Source of the DNA: Phycisphaerae bacterium
Lineage (GTDB): Bacteria > Planctomycetota > Phycisphaerae > JAJVII01
Direction of reading: 5' to 3'
Assembly: GCA_022072085.1 (NCBI GenBank)
Contig: JAJVII010000012.1
Coordinates: 62,001-126,000, forward strand
DNA: 64,000 bases
The notes below the pieces were generated by a model. That model saw nothing but the letters and a program-made list of their open reading frames with translations. It did not search any database and was not told the DNA's origin. Position 1 is the stretch's first letter, and every line of letters begins with the position of its first letter. A program made the position numbers and the translations under genes. Below, one piece after another: positions 1,183 to 25,549 of the stretch.

Positions 1183-3420
1183 CTACCTGCCGGCCGGCGA
1201 GCCGCTGCCGGACGGGCCGGGCAGCCAGGTCAGATCGCCCAGCGGCTGGCCGGCAGCGTCGGTGATCTGGGCCACCATCATCCAGGTCGTGAGCCGGTTC
1301 TCGACCTCCAGCAGCAGCCGATTGGCCCCGGCGGCCAGGTGAACCGGCACGACGTCCACCGAGTCGTGGAACCCGCGGCTGGCGGTCGCGCCGCTGATCC
1401 CGTCGTGGACGAGCCGGCCGTTCAACCAGGCGCGGTTGTGGTCGTTGGTGTCCAGCCGAAGCACCGCGTCGCGGGCCCGGTCGCTGTAGAAGTAAGTCAT
1501 CGCGTAAGCCAACTGGTTGCCGTCCTCGCCGAGCCGCCGCCCGAGGTCCACGGCCTGGGCGTTCAGCGCCGACCACTTCACCTCGCCGGCTGCGGTCTTG
1601 ATCGCGTCGCCGTCGGCCGGCTGAACGGTCGCCGGGTCGAAGGGGTGGTTCTTCAGGTCGCGGGGGAAAGGCCCGGCGGTGATCCAGTGATCGACGTAGT
1701 CGGTGCGGACCATCGTGCCCGGCTGGGCGAGGAAGGCATACCTGGCCGTCGTGACCGCGTTGGCGGCCGGGCTGCGGTCGGCAATGCCGCTGACCTGGAG
1801 GATGTACTGCCGGTCGCGCTTCAGCGGCTCGGCCAGCGTCAGGACGACTTCGCGCTGCTGGCCGCGGCCGTCGGCATTCAGCGCCGCGTCCTTGACCTGG
1901 AGCGGCGCAGCGGGCTCGAGCGGAGCCGGTCCTTCCTCGGTGGTGAAGAGCCGGAAACCGCCGGCCTTGATGCTGCCCGGAGCGACCGGCTCGTCGAAGC
2001 GAACGATCCATTCGGTGTCGGAAGCGGGCACGACGTATTCGACCTTCGGCGGACCCTTGTCCGCGGCCTCAGACAGCAGCCGCCAGACGACGGCCGGCCC
2101 GTCGGCGTTCACCCGCTGATAGGCCAGCAGCGACTGGCCCGTCGGACCGGCGGCCAGCACCGGCTCCTCGGCCTCGTCGCGGTCGGCGACGATCAGGGCG
2201 GCCGGGCGGTCGATCAGCCCCCAGCCGGGCAGCATGCGGGTCATGTAGAGCCGGCGGTGGTTCAGCCGCCGCGTATCGACGAGTTGCCCGCACGACCAGA
2301 CGACCACCAGGCTGCGCCCGTCGTAGCAGGCGGCCGGCGTGCCGGTCGGCCAGTTGTCGCCCATCGTGTGCTTGAGGGCCCCGCGCATGCCCATCGGCCA
2401 GCCGGGGTGGTTGAACCAGCGGGCGGCGTCCAGGCAGTTGGGAACCCGGCCGTCGGCCTTGGCCCCGGCGAAGCGTTCGCCCCCGCCGCGGCGGAAGGGC
2501 TCTGAGGCCTTCAGCTCGGGCAGGCTGCCGTCGGCCAGGAGGCGGGCGCCGGCGATCGCCCCGTTGCCGCTCCAGCCCCAGGGGTCGGGAAACGGCTGGC
2601 TGTTCATGAAGACGTAGCCGTCGCCCCACGCCCCCACCGCGACCGACGCGCCGGCGATCTTGTCGACCCAGACTTGGGTCGTGGGAACGACGACCTTGCC
2701 CTGGCTGCTGACCAGCGCGGCGTACCACTTCTGGCAGACGAGGTAGTTCGAGCCCGTCCAGGCGACGCTGGGGCGTTCGCCGCGATCGAGGATCGTGAAC
2801 CCCATCTTGTCGGTCAGCGTGCCGTTGGCGGCGTCGATGCGGGCGCCGTGAATCTCGAAGTGATCGTCCACGTAGCCCTGCCAGACGACGAGGAACTGCC
2901 CCTTGCCGTCGGTGGTGACGGCCGGGGCGACCTGGGCGCCGGATCGGCCGGCGATCAGGAAGCCCTCCGTCGGCGTCACCTGGCCGTCGGGAGTGACGAT
3001 CGCGCCGTAGATGTCGCTGTCACGTCCGCGGCGGTCGGCCCAGACGACCAGGAAGTGGCCGCTGCAATAGGCGACCGCGGGAGTCTCCTGGGCCCCGGCC
3101 TGGGCGCAGACCGTCAGCGGCTCGCCGACGGTCGCGCCGTCGGGCGAAATCCGCTGGGCCAGGATGTCGCTGCCGCCGCCGGCGCCGCTGAAGCCCTCCT
3201 GCCAGACCAGCAGGTAGGTGTCGGCGCCGAACGCAACGGCCGGGGCGAACTGCCCGCCGTGGGCGGGCGAGGCGACGGGGCCGGCGGCGCCCAGCGTCAC
3301 GCCGGCCGGCGGCTGGCCGGCGTCGGAGGCCATCACGGCCATGGGCATCTGCGGGACCGCGCAGGAGGCCAGCAGCATCGCCGCCGGCAGCGACAGAACG
3401 AGTGTGGCGGTTCGCCTCAT
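1183..3420 (-). CDS. Lipoprotein with beta-propeller-like repeats and C-terminal binding domain
   Basis: 745 aa. The ATG at 3420 overlaps the stop of the upstream gene by 4 bp (ATGA). Residues 1-20 are a lipoprotein signal with lipobox LLASC. Residues about 45-330 hold repeated blade-like segments built on YLLVWQ, FLVVWAD, FLVVWQG and SLVVVWS, as in seven-bladed propeller proteins that gather sequence around a VVW core. Around residues 390-520 comes an Ig-like or SbsA-like segment (EWIVRFDEPVAPGS, QYILQVSGI). The last 150 residues resemble a galactose-binding domain (NRAWLNGRLVHDG). The likely location is the outer membrane or cell surface. No enzymatic motif is visible, so a binding or sensing role is an inference. 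Confidence 0.8.
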   Translation of the reverse strand: MRRTATLVLSLPAAMLLASCAVPQMPMAVMASDAGQPPAGVTLGAAGPVASPAHGGQFAPAVAFGADTYLLVWQEGFSGAGGGSDILAQRISPDGATVGEPLTVCAQAGAQETPAVAYCSGHFLVVWADRRGRDSDIYGAIVTPDGQVTPTEGFLIAGRSGAQVAPAVTTDGKGQFLVVWQGYVDDHFEIHGARIDAANGTLTDKMGFTILDRGERPSVAWTGSNYLVCQKWYAALVSSQGKVVVPTTQVWVDKIAGASVAVGAWGDGYVFMNSQPFPDPWGWSGNGAIAGARLLADGSLPELKASEPFRRGGGERFAGAKADGRVPNCLDAARWFNHPGWPMGMRGALKHTMGDNWPTGTPAACYDGRSLVVVWSCGQLVDTRRLNHRRLYMTRMLPGWGLIDRPAALIVADRDEAEEPVLAAGPTGQSLLAYQRVNADGPAVVWRLLSEAADKGPPKVEYVVPASDTEWIVRFDEPVAPGSIKAGGFRLFTTEEGPAPLEPAAPLQVKDAALNADGRGQQREVVLTLAEPLKRDRQYILQVSGIADRSPAANAVTTARYAFLAQPGTMVRTDYVDHWITAGPFPRDLKNHPFDPATVQPADGDAIKTAAGEVKWSALNAQAVDLGRRLGEDGNQLAYAMTYFYSDRARDAVLRLDTNDHNRAWLNGRLVHDGISGATASRGFHDSVDVVPVHLAAGANRLLLEVENRLTTWMMVAQITDAAGQPLGDLTWLPGPSGSGSPAGR

Positions 3421-11626: not shown

Positions 11627-11823
11627 TCGATATTCTCCATGATGTGCCATTCACCGCAGTTCGCAAATCCGGTAGCCTCACCCACGAGTTTGAACCGGGG
11701 CCCTCGCACGAGTGATCATAAGCTGAGTCTGCGCAAGAAGAAAGCCGCCCCGTTGTTCGCGGTCGCCTTTCGCGTGAAGAAAGTTGGGAAGACTGGTTTG
11801 GAACCATGCATCGGGCCGAACTG

Positions 11824-12210
11824 CTACTTCCTGCGGCGGCGGGCCAGGGGGGCGGCCAGGGCGCCGAGCAGCAGCAGGGCGAGCGTGGCCGGCTCGGGGA
11901 CCGCGACCGCGGCCAACTGGGCGTCCCAGGTCACCGCGTAGTCCCAGCTCGCGAAGTCGCTGTTGGCGAAGCCCAGCGTGAACTCGTATCGGCCGGCTGA
12001 CAGGCCGGTCAGGTAGATATGCTCGACGTTGTCGACGGTCGAAACGCTCTGGTCGATCAGGCTGCCCTGCACGTAGCCCGAGGCGTTGTAGAACTTCAGG
12101 TTGATGTCGGCCAGCGACGGCGTGAAGGTGGCCGACGCAAACGGCGTCTGTCCGTCCACCTCGGCGATCGCGCGGTTCCAGGTCAGCAGGATCGACAGCG
12201 AGGTGACCTC
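11824..12210 (-). pseudogene. C-terminal part of the PEP-CTERM S8-like protein, after an in-frame stop
   Basis: This stretch is in the same frame as the S8-like gene upstream and is separated from it only by a TAG at 12211-12213. It encodes about 128 residues: a beta-sandwich segment (LSILLTWNRAIAEVDGQTPF, HIYLTGLSAGRYEFTLGF) and a full PEP-CTERM tail (VPEPATLALLLLGALAAP, LARRRRK). A GTG at 12159 could start translation of the last 111 residues but would give no signal peptide. The simplest reading is one gene split by a nonsense mutation: changing TAG to CAG gives an unbroken open frame of 477 codons. Confidence 0.75.
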
Positions 12211-13257
12211 CTAGCCAGCGGCGACCTCGAAGAAGTAGGTCTTGCCCGACGCGGTCAGCGTGTCGTAGTCCCAGCCGGTCGTGCCGACGTCGGCGACGGC
12301 GCTGGCCTCCTGCTCGCCGGAGGTCAGGATGCGGTCGCTGTTGTCGATGTTCAACTCGCCGGCGCCGTAGCGGGAATCCAGCGGCTGGGTCTGGGTGTGC
12401 GACCACGAGACGAACTCGGTCTTGGTCGCCCCGCCCATCAACAGGGCCTTGATGGTCAGTTCCTTGGAGGCGTGAACGTCGCTGCCGGCGGTCTGCATCA
12501 GCAGCCCAGCGGCGGCGCTGACCATCGGCGTGGCGTAGCTGGAAGCCGTGCCGGGGGCGACGATGTCGGGCTTGGATCGGCCGGCCACGTCCAGGCTGGT
12601 CGGCCCGTGGCTGCCGCCGCCGTCTCTTCGGCCGACGACGATGGCGTTGTAGCTCTGGCCCAGCAGCTTGGGCACGGTGGTCGTTGAGCCGTTGTTGACG
12701 GCGACGACGGCCAGCACGTTGTCGCGGACGACCATGTAGTCCAGGCGGCGGGTGATCTCGATGGCGTCGGCGTCGGAAGTCTGGGAGTCTTTGCTGACCC
12801 AGCTCGCGTTGATGATGCGGCTGGTCTCGACCTTGGGGGCGTAGCGGTTGTAAGCGCGGAGGAAGCCCGTGTCCAGCCAGTTGCCGGCGCTGTAGACGTC
12901 GATGGTCGCAATGCCCGATGCGATGCCCGAGTTGCCGTAGTAGTACGTGCCGACCGTGTAGGCGTGGCTGGAGTAGGCGCCGATGCCGGTCTTGTCGGTG
13001 AAGGTCTTTCCCGAGAAGGCCACAGGGATGGTCGAGGGCGGCGTGTAGGGCAGATACTGCGTGCCGTTGACGTCAAGCGACGCCTCGACCTGGGTCACCT
13101 TGACGCCCGAGCCGTTGGGGATGGGCTGGCTGGCCAGCGTCCGGCGGGCGACCATCGACGTGTAGCCGATGTCGTCCATGTAGCCGGCCGAGGCGGTCTG
13201 AGTCCAGGGGAGAACAAGAGCGACGGCGAGGAATCCGATCCGGCGAACAGGACGCAT
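12211..13257 (-). CDS. Secreted S8 (subtilase)-like protein, cut short by TAG
   Basis: 348 aa from ATG at 13257, with GAGGAG eight bases upstream. A signal peptide ends at TQTASAG. The subtilase-like layout is visible: GSGVKVTQVEASLD in place of the Asp motif (Glu in the Asp position), SSHAYTVGTYYYG carrying the His, and GTASSYATPMVSAAAGLLM carrying the Ser. Planctomycete PEP-CTERM proteins of this type commonly show Glu for Asp, so peptidase activity is uncertain. As read, the product lacks the PEP-CTERM anchor and would be released or misfolded. The gene body ends in YFFEVAAG directly before TAG. Confidence 0.8.
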   Translation of the reverse strand: MRPVRRIGFLAVALVLPWTQTASAGYMDDIGYTSMVARRTLASQPIPNGSGVKVTQVEASLDVNGTQYLPYTPPSTIPVAFSGKTFTDKTGIGAYSSHAYTVGTYYYGNSGIASGIATIDVYSAGNWLDTGFLRAYNRYAPKVETSRIINASWVSKDSQTSDADAIEITRRLDYMVVRDNVLAVVAVNNGSTTTVPKLLGQSYNAIVVGRRDGGGSHGPTSLDVAGRSKPDIVAPGTASSYATPMVSAAAGLLMQTAGSDVHASKELTIKALLMGGATKTEFVSWSHTQTQPLDSRYGAGELNIDNSDRILTSGEQEASAVADVGTTGWDYDTLTASGKTYFFEVAAG

Positions 13258-13454
13258 CCGGGGCGCTCCTCAGACCCTTATACGTCTTGTCCGAAGGCGC
13301 CCTGGGTCGGGGCAGGCCTCTCGAACCCTTCTCAATAGTCATTCTTGCAAACCGCGTACCACAGATGGGTCGATCGGAGGCAAGATGTCATAACCATATA
13401 AAATGCAATTGTTTACATGCAATAACCCCCGTTCCTGGTTTCCCTCTGTGATGA

Positions 13455-13476
13455 GAAAATGCAACATGCGTGTTGC
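13455..13476 (-). terminator. Weak hairpin terminator after the guanylyltransferase gene
   Basis: On the minus strand the RNA reads GCAACA-CGCA-UGUUGC followed by AUUUUCUC. This six-pair stem with a short U-rich tail lies 30 bp after the stop of the guanylyltransferase gene. The stem is short, so efficiency is doubtful. The nearby AT-rich stretch 13400-13465 also carries three ATGCAA copies upstream of the S8-like gene and probably holds its promoter. Confidence 0.35.
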
Positions 13477-13505
13477 GAGATGTGTACACGCCCCCGGGAA
13501 GTCAC

Positions 13506-14588
13506 TCAGTCATGTGCGTCGCCGAACTGCTCGCGGACCCGGGCCAGCAGCGTCTTGAGGTCGCCCGCCCGGGCCTTGGAGGTCACCAGCGTGACGCCGC
13601 GGCTCTGCACGACGACGAGGTCCTCGACCCCCAGCGCCGCCAGCAGCGCCCCCGGCTCATCCGAGAACAGGATGTTGCCCTTGGCATCCACCGTCGCCAC
13701 GCGGCCGCGGCACAGGTTGGCCTGGCCGTCGGTGGGGTTGACCTCCGCGACCGCCGGCCAGTTGCCGACGTCCAGCCACTGGCAGTCCAGTTCGCGGACC
13801 AGCACGGAGCAGTTCGGGTCAACCGACGCCGGCTCCATCAGGGCGAAGTCGATGCTGATGCGCGGCAGGTTGGAGTAGGCCGCCGCCGTCCGGGCCGCGT
13901 CGCCGTCGGCCCAGGCGTCGGCAGCCGCCCGCAGCGCCCGCAGATGATCGGGGCGAAACCGGCCCAGCCGGGCGACCAGCGTGTCGGCCCGCCAGATGAA
14001 CATGCCGCTGTTCCAGTAGTGCTGTCCGTCGGCGCAGTAGCCGACGGCCGTCGCGTGGTCCGGTTTCTCCACGAAACGCCGGACGCGGAAGGCCTGCTTG
14101 CCCACGGCCGGCCCGCGATGGATGTAGCCCAGGCCCGTGTTCGGCCAGGCGGGCGGGATGCCAAGGGTCACCAGCGCGCCGGGGTCCGCGTCCAGCAGGC
14201 CCATCGCGTCCTCGACGGCGCTGGCGAAGCGGTCGACCGGGCGGATCACGTGATCGGCGGTGAAGATGCCGACCTTGGCGTCGGGATCGCGGCGGGCCAG
14301 CAGCAGACAGGCCAGGCCGATGGCGTTGGAGGTGTCGCGAATGGCCGGCTCGCCCAGGATGTTCTCCCGCGGCAGCGAGGTCGCGACGCGGGCGATGGGC
14401 TCGACGAGTTCGGCGCTGGTGACGATCCAGGTCCGCTCGGGCGGGAACAAGCCGCCCAGCCGCTCCAGGGCCAGTTCGAGCAGGCAGCGGCCTTCGACCA
14501 GGGGGAGCAACTGCTTGGGCCGCCCCTGCCGGCTGAGCGGCCACAGCCGCGTGCCGCTGCCGCCGGCCATGATCACTGCGTGGTTCAT
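13506..14588 (-). CDS. manC: Mannose-1-phosphate guanylyltransferase
   Basis: 360 aa, the size of the short (GMP-only) enzymes without the phosphomannose isomerase domain. The start is ATG at 14588 with AGGAG ten bases upstream. The nucleotidyltransferase signature GGSGTRLWPLSRQGRPKQLL sits at residues 9-28, and VGIFTADHVIRP and FVEKPDHATAVGY are typical of the family. It makes GDP-mannose from mannose-1-phosphate and GTP in the cytoplasm, the donor for mannose- or fucose-containing glycans. It stands alone between the two envelope-protein genes. Confidence 0.9.
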   Translation of the reverse strand: MNHAVIMAGGSGTRLWPLSRQGRPKQLLPLVEGRCLLELALERLGGLFPPERTWIVTSAELVEPIARVATSLPRENILGEPAIRDTSNAIGLACLLLARRDPDAKVGIFTADHVIRPVDRFASAVEDAMGLLDADPGALVTLGIPPAWPNTGLGYIHRGPAVGKQAFRVRRFVEKPDHATAVGYCADGQHYWNSGMFIWRADTLVARLGRFRPDHLRALRAAADAWADGDAARTAAAYSNLPRISIDFALMEPASVDPNCSVLVRELDCQWLDVGNWPAVAEVNPTDGQANLCRGRVATVDAKGNILFSDEPGALLAALGVEDLVVVQSRGVTLVTSKARAGDLKTLLARVREQFGDAHD

Positions 14589-23593: not shown

Positions 23594-25549
23594 TCAGCGA
23601 GTCTTGTCCTCGGGGGGCCAATCCGGCAGGAAGTCCCGGACCATGATGGGCATGAAGTCCTGGAGGAATTTCTCCGCCGCCGCCTGGTGCTCGTCTTCAT
23701 CGGATATCAACGGGAACTTCACTTCCACCTTCGCGTAGTAGGCATACTTCCCGAAGGGGCTGTTCAGGAGCAGTCTCACCTTGGTGTGGTCGCCTTCCAT
23801 CTGCCCGTTGAAGCAGAAGAAGTAGATCACATTGTTCCGCCGTTCTCCCTCGTCGCGCCCGAAGAACTGCACGCGCCGCACATTGACCTTGCGGCCGGCA
23901 AACGTGAATTCCGGATACTTGCTCGCGCTGACGTTCTCCGTGTAGCCGCCGCCCAGGTAGCACCGCTCCGGCACGTGGGGCACCACGTCCGGCTCGCCGG
24001 TGTAGTAGCTGACGAAGAAATAGGCCTGCATCCTGTTGTCGACCGGGCGCCCCTTGTCGTCGGTCAGCACGTAGAGCCGCTGGATATACTGCGGGCTCAT
24101 CAGCATCGTCGCGGAGTCCTGCGGCACTTCGCTGGCCGTCTTGCCGTCGCGAAGCCGCGTGGGATGTTTGGCGCCGAGCGTCTTTTCGATGTCCGGTCCA
24201 AGCATGCGCTGGGCCGGGCCCCAGTCCGCCGGCACGGCCCACGCGCAGTCCGTGCCTTGCTGGGGGATCTCATCGGGGAAGCGATCCAGCGCCTGCTTGA
24301 GCGGTACGGGATGCTTGAGGAAGACCGTGCCCATGATGGCGTTGACGACGTTCCAGCTCACGGCGCTGACCAGCAGCACGCCCGCGACCGCCACGAAATG
24401 CCTCTGCCTGAGATCCGGCATGACGCTGCGGGCGAACTTGCCGATCCGGGCCGGTTCGGACAGGGCGCCGAAGAACCGCCCCAGCCCGCGCCCGACGGCG
24501 CCGGGCACGGCCGCAGCCATGTCCAGAATGGAAGAGCCGCCTGCTTCCGACGGGGCCGGCGTCGCTTCCTGGCCGGATGCGCCGCGCTGATCGGCCTCTT
24601 CGACGACGATCTTGGACAGGATGACATGCAGCAGCCAGAACAGCAGGAAGGCGACCGGAAGCATCAGCAGGCCTTCCATCGTGTGCGCGAACCCCTCGGC
24701 CCAGCTTCCCCGGTCGATGTAGTGCAGGAAGCCCATGCCCGTGACCCGGAAGACGTTGCTGGCAATGGCGATCGGGATCGTCGCCGCCAGCAGTATCAGC
24801 CGATGCCACAGCGGTCGGCGGGCCATGTAGGCCATCAGGGCCCCCAGGGCCATGAAGGCCATCATGATCTTCATGCCGCTGCACGCCTCGGCAACCTGGA
24901 GCGAGGCCATCTTCCCGCTCCGCGTGAACACGTCGATCACCACGCCGTTGAGGTCGGCCCGGATGCCCACCAGTTTCAGCACCAGCGCCGACGACTTGGC
25001 CGCGACTTGCTGGAGCTTGGTCGAAATCGGATCGTAGAGGATGCCGCCGATCCGGATGCCGAACAGGATGAACACCAGCGGGAACCACACCGCCCCCAGG
25101 AACCGCCACCCGCACAGGGCCAGCACCATGCCCACCAGCAGCAGCCACCAGGAATAGTCCTGGCCCATGATCAGCTTGATCCAGTAGGTCGCGAACAGAA
25201 AGCAGCCCAGGGCCAGGGCGATCACGCCCAGCCCCGCCCAGGTCGGCCTGAGCGGCACGTCCAGCCACTTGTCGCGGATCGCCAGCAGGATGCCGACGCA
25301 GAAGAACGGAATGACCAGCCCGTGGCTCCAGTTGTCGTTGTGCAGCCAGACCAGGAACAGCCGGATCATCGTTCCGTGGAACAGCCAGAAGAACAGCCCG
25401 GCCAGCATGACGATCTTGGTCAGCCGCGAGGGCGTGAAGAAGTCGAGGGCATCGCGCATGCTGTGCCCGCCGCCGGCCGATCGGGTGAACGTCCTGACAG
25501 CCTCGGCCTGCTCCGGCGTAAGCGGTTTGTCTCCTACTGCTTCGGTCAC
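23594..25549 (-). CDS. Exosortase with fused EpsI-type C-terminal domain
   Basis: 651 aa from GTG 25549; ATG 25459 is an alternative start. Residues 40-320 form eight or so membrane helices with the exosortase catalytic set: Cys about 223 in AEACSGMK, Arg about 268 in NVFRV and His about 289 in HTMEG. Residues about 390-645 form a soluble domain (RCYLGGGYTENVSASKYPEF, VRRVQFFGRDEGER) of the EpsI/DUF3485 kind, usually a separate gene or a fusion in planctomycetes. The enzyme is predicted to cut PEP-CTERM tails and attach the proteins to the envelope. Candidate substrates in this window are the S8-like protein and the orphan tail at 8071. Confidence 0.88.
   Translation of the reverse strand: MTEAVGDKPLTPEQAEAVRTFTRSAGGGHSMRDALDFFTPSRLTKIVMLAGLFFWLFHGTMIRLFLVWLHNDNWSHGLVIPFFCVGILLAIRDKWLDVPLRPTWAGLGVIALALGCFLFATYWIKLIMGQDYSWWLLLVGMVLALCGWRFLGAVWFPLVFILFGIRIGGILYDPISTKLQQVAAKSSALVLKLVGIRADLNGVVIDVFTRSGKMASLQVAEACSGMKIMMAFMALGALMAYMARRPLWHRLILLAATIPIAIASNVFRVTGMGFLHYIDRGSWAEGFAHTMEGLLMLPVAFLLFWLLHVILSKIVVEEADQRGASGQEATPAPSEAGGSSILDMAAAVPGAVGRGLGRFFGALSEPARIGKFARSVMPDLRQRHFVAVAGVLLVSAVSWNVVNAIMGTVFLKHPVPLKQALDRFPDEIPQQGTDCAWAVPADWGPAQRMLGPDIEKTLGAKHPTRLRDGKTASEVPQDSATMLMSPQYIQRLYVLTDDKGRPVDNRMQAYFFVSYYTGEPDVVPHVPERCYLGGGYTENVSASKYPEFTFAGRKVNVRRVQFFGRDEGERRNNVIYFFCFNGQMEGDHTKVRLLLNSPFGKYAYYAKVEVKFPLISDEDEHQAAAEKFLQDFMPIMVRDFLPDWPPEDKTR

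Follow-up and report, generated by a model that had tools for sequence, protein, structure and literature searches.

The closest described counterparts of the locus examined here are the PEP-CTERM/exosortase (EpsH) proteins, whose description we take to be the work of Haft and colleagues, and the KP-43/SubHal subtilases. PEP-CTERM proteins (PF07589, TIGR02595) have a signal peptide, a C-terminal PEP motif, a hydrophobic stretch and an Arg-rich end. According to PMC1569441, PEP-CTERM protein sets belong to the fastest-evolving parts of their genomes, the genes being often duplicated and lost. The present gene shares these features, and an exosortase occurs in the same genome and in the same window (the whole 64,000-nucleotide stretch of Phycisphaerae DNA analyzed), together with 75 anchors in the genome; it differs in carrying an in-frame TAG between the body and the anchor. 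KP-43 (PDB 1wmd) and SubHal (5fax) have an S8 domain followed by a C-terminal beta domain, an order that is shared by the protein family described here, whereas PEP-CTERM or dockerin tails in part of its members set this family apart, as does, by motif reading, a Glu in the register of the catalytic Asp of S8 enzymes. Like nonsense-disrupted pseudogenes in general, the gene has a conserved frame interrupted by one derived stop, and it differs from them only in its youth. A search of one collection of open-access papers found nothing on PEP-CTERM proteins in connection with a premature stop codon, gene conversion or stop-codon readthrough. The reading that we favor, with a probability of about 0.6, is that a young nonsense mutation inactivates an exosortase-sorted, KP-43-like subtilase homologue belonging to a birth-and-death family.

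Re-translation of the minus strand gave a frame of 477 codons in total from 13257 to 11827, in which 348 sense codons precede an internal TAG and 127 more lead up to the terminal TAG (Table 1). The first-pass annotation had placed a single TAG between EVAAG and EVTSL, and both its coordinates and the flanking residues proved exact. The Peptidase_S8 profile PF00082 matched the pre-stop part at residues 119-300 (39.4 bits, cut-off 21.8, E = 5.7e-10), and the post-stop part was matched by the PEP-CTERM profile PF07589 (29.1 bits, cut-off 20.7) and, at its C terminus, by TIGR02595 (26.3 bits, cut-off 16), the matches to these two profiles lying only beyond the TAG. Because the PF00082 match upstream and the PF07589 match downstream both exceed the Pfam cut-offs, the split frame is not a product of chance. 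GC3 was 0.922 before the TAG and 0.953 after it, indicating that the coding look is retained on either side. A signal peptide was recognized by eye in the first ~24 residues; as the TAG lies between them, it and the anchor are not on the same polypeptide.

Table 1. Features of the split gene and of related PEP-CTERM loci. Positions are those of the window unless a locus (L), a contig (C) or the window's own genome (G000) is named.
Feature	Position	Strand	Evidence or remark
Pre-stop part, 348 codons	12214..13257	(-)	Translation; PF00082 match; residue conservation
E58	13084-13086	(-)	Alignment of relatives
H98	12964-12966	(-)	Alignment of relatives
S240	12538-12540	(-)	Alignment of relatives
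Internal in-frame TAG, codon 349	12211..12213	(-)	Translation; absent from 32/32 relatives
Post-stop part, 127 sense codons: remaining KP-43-like beta domain and PEP-CTERM anchor	11830..12210	(-)	
Trp360	12178-12180	(-)	Alignment of relatives
PEP-CTERM sorting signal of split gene	11830..11904	(-)	Profile match (G000:C8:73830-73904)
Original terminal stop, likewise TAG	11827..11829	(-)	Translation
Orphan PEP-CTERM coding segment	8092..8163	(-)	Directly past SulP gene stop
Exosortase (EpsH) domain	24626..25399 (G000:C8:86626-87399)	(-)	E = 5.5e-56; 678-codon open frame
Second split PEP-CTERM gene	L073:1912-3312	(+)	TAG at 3127-3129, 60 codons before end
Body and anchor in different frames	G000:C16:74830-74898 (L044)		Probable frameshift
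Second orphan anchor	C2:46576		Frame inspection

Homologues were sought at several taxonomic levels. The class-level search covered 397 genomes, of which 151, counting the own genome, gave matches, and no row among the matches listed had a stop within the matched stretch; the searches at genus, family and order level added no homologue from other genomes, the genus level comprising the own genome only. Thirty-two relatives were then aligned, namely a paralogue from the own genome (L002), two from named records (L003 and L004), and the best 29 of the class search (L005-L033). The closest of them, L005, has a 477-codon open frame (472 residues from the first start codon) that holds both parts in one frame. 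None of the 32 has its C terminus at the TAG position, so that the long frame is ancestral and the stop derived; a natural C terminus at this point was thereby ruled out, and with it the earlier proviso that orthologues might end at the same place. The first-pass annotation had also traced the stop to a C-to-T change in CAG and expected Gln at this codon in orthologues. No relative carries Gln there: the column is a gap in 20 of the 32, and the remaining 12 have S, T, C, P, H, A or G, the TAG facing Thr of L005 and His of L007 in pairwise alignments. As the codon thus lies in a variable-length loop without Gln, an origin from CAG is neither shown nor excluded. Eleven residues past the TAG, Trp360 is kept in 32/32 relatives and Arg362 in 28/32. 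Upstream of the TAG, amino acid identity was 0.56 to L005 and 0.50 to L007; downstream of it, the values were 0.47 and 0.49, respectively. By this measure the two parts of the gene are similarly conserved. Since the relatives read through and identity is alike on both flanks, the break is either derived and recent or an error.

The pre-stop part consists of the signal peptide, an S8-like domain in which E58, H98, N189 and S240 are kept in all 32 relatives, and the initial strands of a C-terminal beta domain. A single-sequence search of solved structures gave no match at E 0.01. The family profile, built from 31 relatives and the window sequence (L012, whose frame runs off its locus, was dropped from the profile but counted among the 32), did match KP-43 and SubHal across the S8 domain and, separately and in the same order, across the C-terminal domain, with domain E-values of 0.00061 and 0.0045. 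This placed the TAG between the first conserved strands of the KP-43-like C-terminal domain. An AlphaFold2 model from a three-sequence alignment, with a mean pLDDT of 36.9 and some confidence only in the C-terminal strands at about 327-450, put strands at 327-334, 339-345, 349-361 and onward to 450. These low-quality strands agree with the profile placement, indicating that the TAG removes most of the beta domain plus the anchor. Thus, the loss of surface anchoring predicted by the first-pass annotation is correct for the anchor itself, and incomplete in that most of the beta domain goes with it.

Might the short product nevertheless be functional, in that an S8-like protein once bound to the cell is now secreted in free form through anchor loss? 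E58, H98 and S240 all lie upstream of the TAG, and the anchor appears dispensable in the family, as the relatives' tails differ: among the 32 members scanned with Pfam, in which the window's member was counted without its tail, 13 carry Dockerin_1, 5 carry PEP-CTERM and the others neither. Anchor loss is therefore compatible with the family. Loss of the beta domain, however, is seen in no relative, the cut domain and its Trp360 being kept in every one aligned, and no relative ends where this product would. On these comparisons we consider a functional truncation improbable. Tails are also swapped across relatives of the family encoded by 12214-13257. A separate feature of this S8-like family is the invariant Glu58 where subtilases carry the catalytic Asp, His and Ser being kept, in 32/32 relatives. 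We take the register of Glu58, by motif reading, to be that of the catalytic Asp in S8 enzymes, and a Glu-His-Ser triad is therefore possible; in the structure alignments, the listed part of which begins after Glu58, both His98 and Ser240 are matched to 1wmd.

Anchor genes were further surveyed genome-wide. The own genome has 75 PEP-CTERM matches and a single EpsH domain match, which lies inside the window and represents the enzyme expected to process PEP-CTERM proteins. All 75 anchor frames were inspected, with signal peptides judged by a simple hydrophobicity scan and by eye. An in-frame TAG splits a long signal-peptide body from its anchor in two of the 75, the present gene and L073 in G000:C34. 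Other lesions were of differing kinds, including the displaced frames of L044, a paralogue of the L073 split gene (50% over 230 residues), and the orphan anchors (Table 1); one further frame runs off a contig end. In three relatives holding 140 anchors, six short frames comprised four running off contig ends, one probable frameshift and one decayed frame, and none was split by a TAG; this inspection took in six of the seven frames shorter than about 165 codons (all but G075:C51:418-483), a range that splits farther upstream would escape. Lesions of such different kinds are more readily explained by gene decay than by a programmed mechanism.

As a rival reading, the TAG could be a consensus error, or the assembly could have taken up the allele of a minority strain, with the organism's gene intact. 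The frame is otherwise undamaged on either side of the TAG, and the assembly is a draft of 72 contigs with completeness 96.95 and contamination 1.68. The post-stop part bears no sign of relaxed constraint, which counts against the mutation reading because a sequence error would look the same. Moreover, CTAG is strongly under-represented in the own genome (128 seen versus 756 expected from trinucleotides, in 326571 bases), and it is a little surprising that both internal TAGs, in the split gene and in L073, stand in a CTAGG context. This last argument is weak, since CTAG also occurs at 2 of the 11 terminal TAGs of anchor genes. Two TAG splits plus other lesions in one gene class, against no internal stop in 43 ABC-transporter domain matches of the same genome (a small sample, viewed only in the interior of the profile match), argue weakly for biology over random error. 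We accordingly regard an error or minority allele as unlikely, albeit the most serious of the rivals considered for the TAG itself.

The second gene of the same genome with a body-TAG-anchor layout, likewise CTAGG, could also point to programmed readthrough of TAG, by which a small share of the product would be anchored and the larger share free. Yet no CUA anticodon was found by ARAGORN among 48 tRNA matches of the genome, the best PylS score in it, 26.1 bits, stayed below the cut-off of 178.15, and TAG terminates 11 of the 75 anchor frames (TGA 55, TAA 9). TAG is thus an ordinary terminator in this genome, with no sign of recoding. Furthermore, the layout was seen in none of the six short frames examined in the three relatives, and the TAG of the split gene falls within a folded domain. 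Readthrough to the anchor as a general rule was rejected on the tRNAs, PylS, the TAG terminators and the three relatives, and for this gene we hold programmed readthrough to be very improbable. The first-pass annotation had offered a phase-variable site as another possibility. No tandem repeat was found in 11700-13600 and the inverted repeats found are imperfect, the TAG being touched only by one arm of a 77% pair whose other arm lies 1.3 kb away; phase variation by slippage or inversion was rejected for want of a visible substrate. Separate translation of the post-stop part, from a 111-codon GTG frame (12159-11824) with AGGAGG at the TAG, was set aside because the exosortase should be out of reach for a product that lacks a signal peptide.

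A recent knock-out, one of the options listed in the first-pass annotation, is consequently the best reading of a derived stop at which no relative ends. Under the young nonsense mutation, the ancestral gene would have encoded a complete secreted PEP-CTERM protein, with signal peptide, S8-like domain, KP-43-like beta domain and C-terminal anchor for the exosortase. A recent single nonsense substitution would then have turned codon 349 into TAG, so that translation would stop inside the beta domain. The 348-residue secreted product would lack the anchor and the greater part of the beta domain and would probably be unstable or of no use, and the downstream 127 codons would go untranslated in any exportable form. 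In a family that gains and loses genes quickly, the split gene would be either a young pseudogene or a null allele that segregates. The frame has undergone no decay so far; we infer that the organism truly carries the mutation and that its product is non-functional. Taken alone, the internal stop is unremarkable, a gene breakage of probably recent date, and it cautions against listing the 348-residue product as a naturally free protease.

The anchor of the split gene is identical at 66 of 69 bases to the orphan anchor 3.7 kb away. Across the own genome, a neighbor was the best DNA match for 14 of the 31 anchors having another within 5 kb, as compared with a mean of 0.65 and at most 5 in 2000 label shuffles; in a second genome (G069, L167-L217) it was so for 13 of 34 anchors, against a shuffle mean of 0.73 and a maximum of 6. 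Among the 15 best pairs listed in G069, most are far apart or on different contigs, so any copying would not be local only. When the bodies of ten own-genome pairs were compared, two were related, the C6 pair (45% over 592 residues) and the C2/C8 pair (42% over 43 residues, E = 8.9e-8), the latter situated at two contig ends and perhaps stemming from a repeat in the assembly. The other eight gave no match at E < 0.01, one of these being the window pair, where the orphan lacks a body and the compared frame overlies SulP. Anchor third positions agreed at up to 26/27 in own-genome pairs, and in 7 of 8 pairs the identical block starts within 6 bases of the anchor start. Near-identical anchor DNA in neighbors with mostly unrelated bodies suggests copying between genes. 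We tentatively propose, at somewhat less than even confidence, that anchors are short DNA cassettes copied between neighboring genes by local gene conversion or short duplication, that body-anchor joins are continually made and broken, and that the TAG-split gene and the orphan are two products of this turnover. Anchor copying, if true, would help explain the rapid multiplication of exosortase substrates, and the pattern of anchor likeness deserves a study of its own, for which any closed genome with many anchors would be suitable. Further example anchors in the own genome lie at L073:309-386, 1428-1505 and 3223-3300. The anchors at G000:C2:399-476 and G000:C8:154863-154940, together with the flank that follows them, are identical at 251 of 254 bases and lie at two contig ends, an identity that probably reflects a repeat that broke the assembly.
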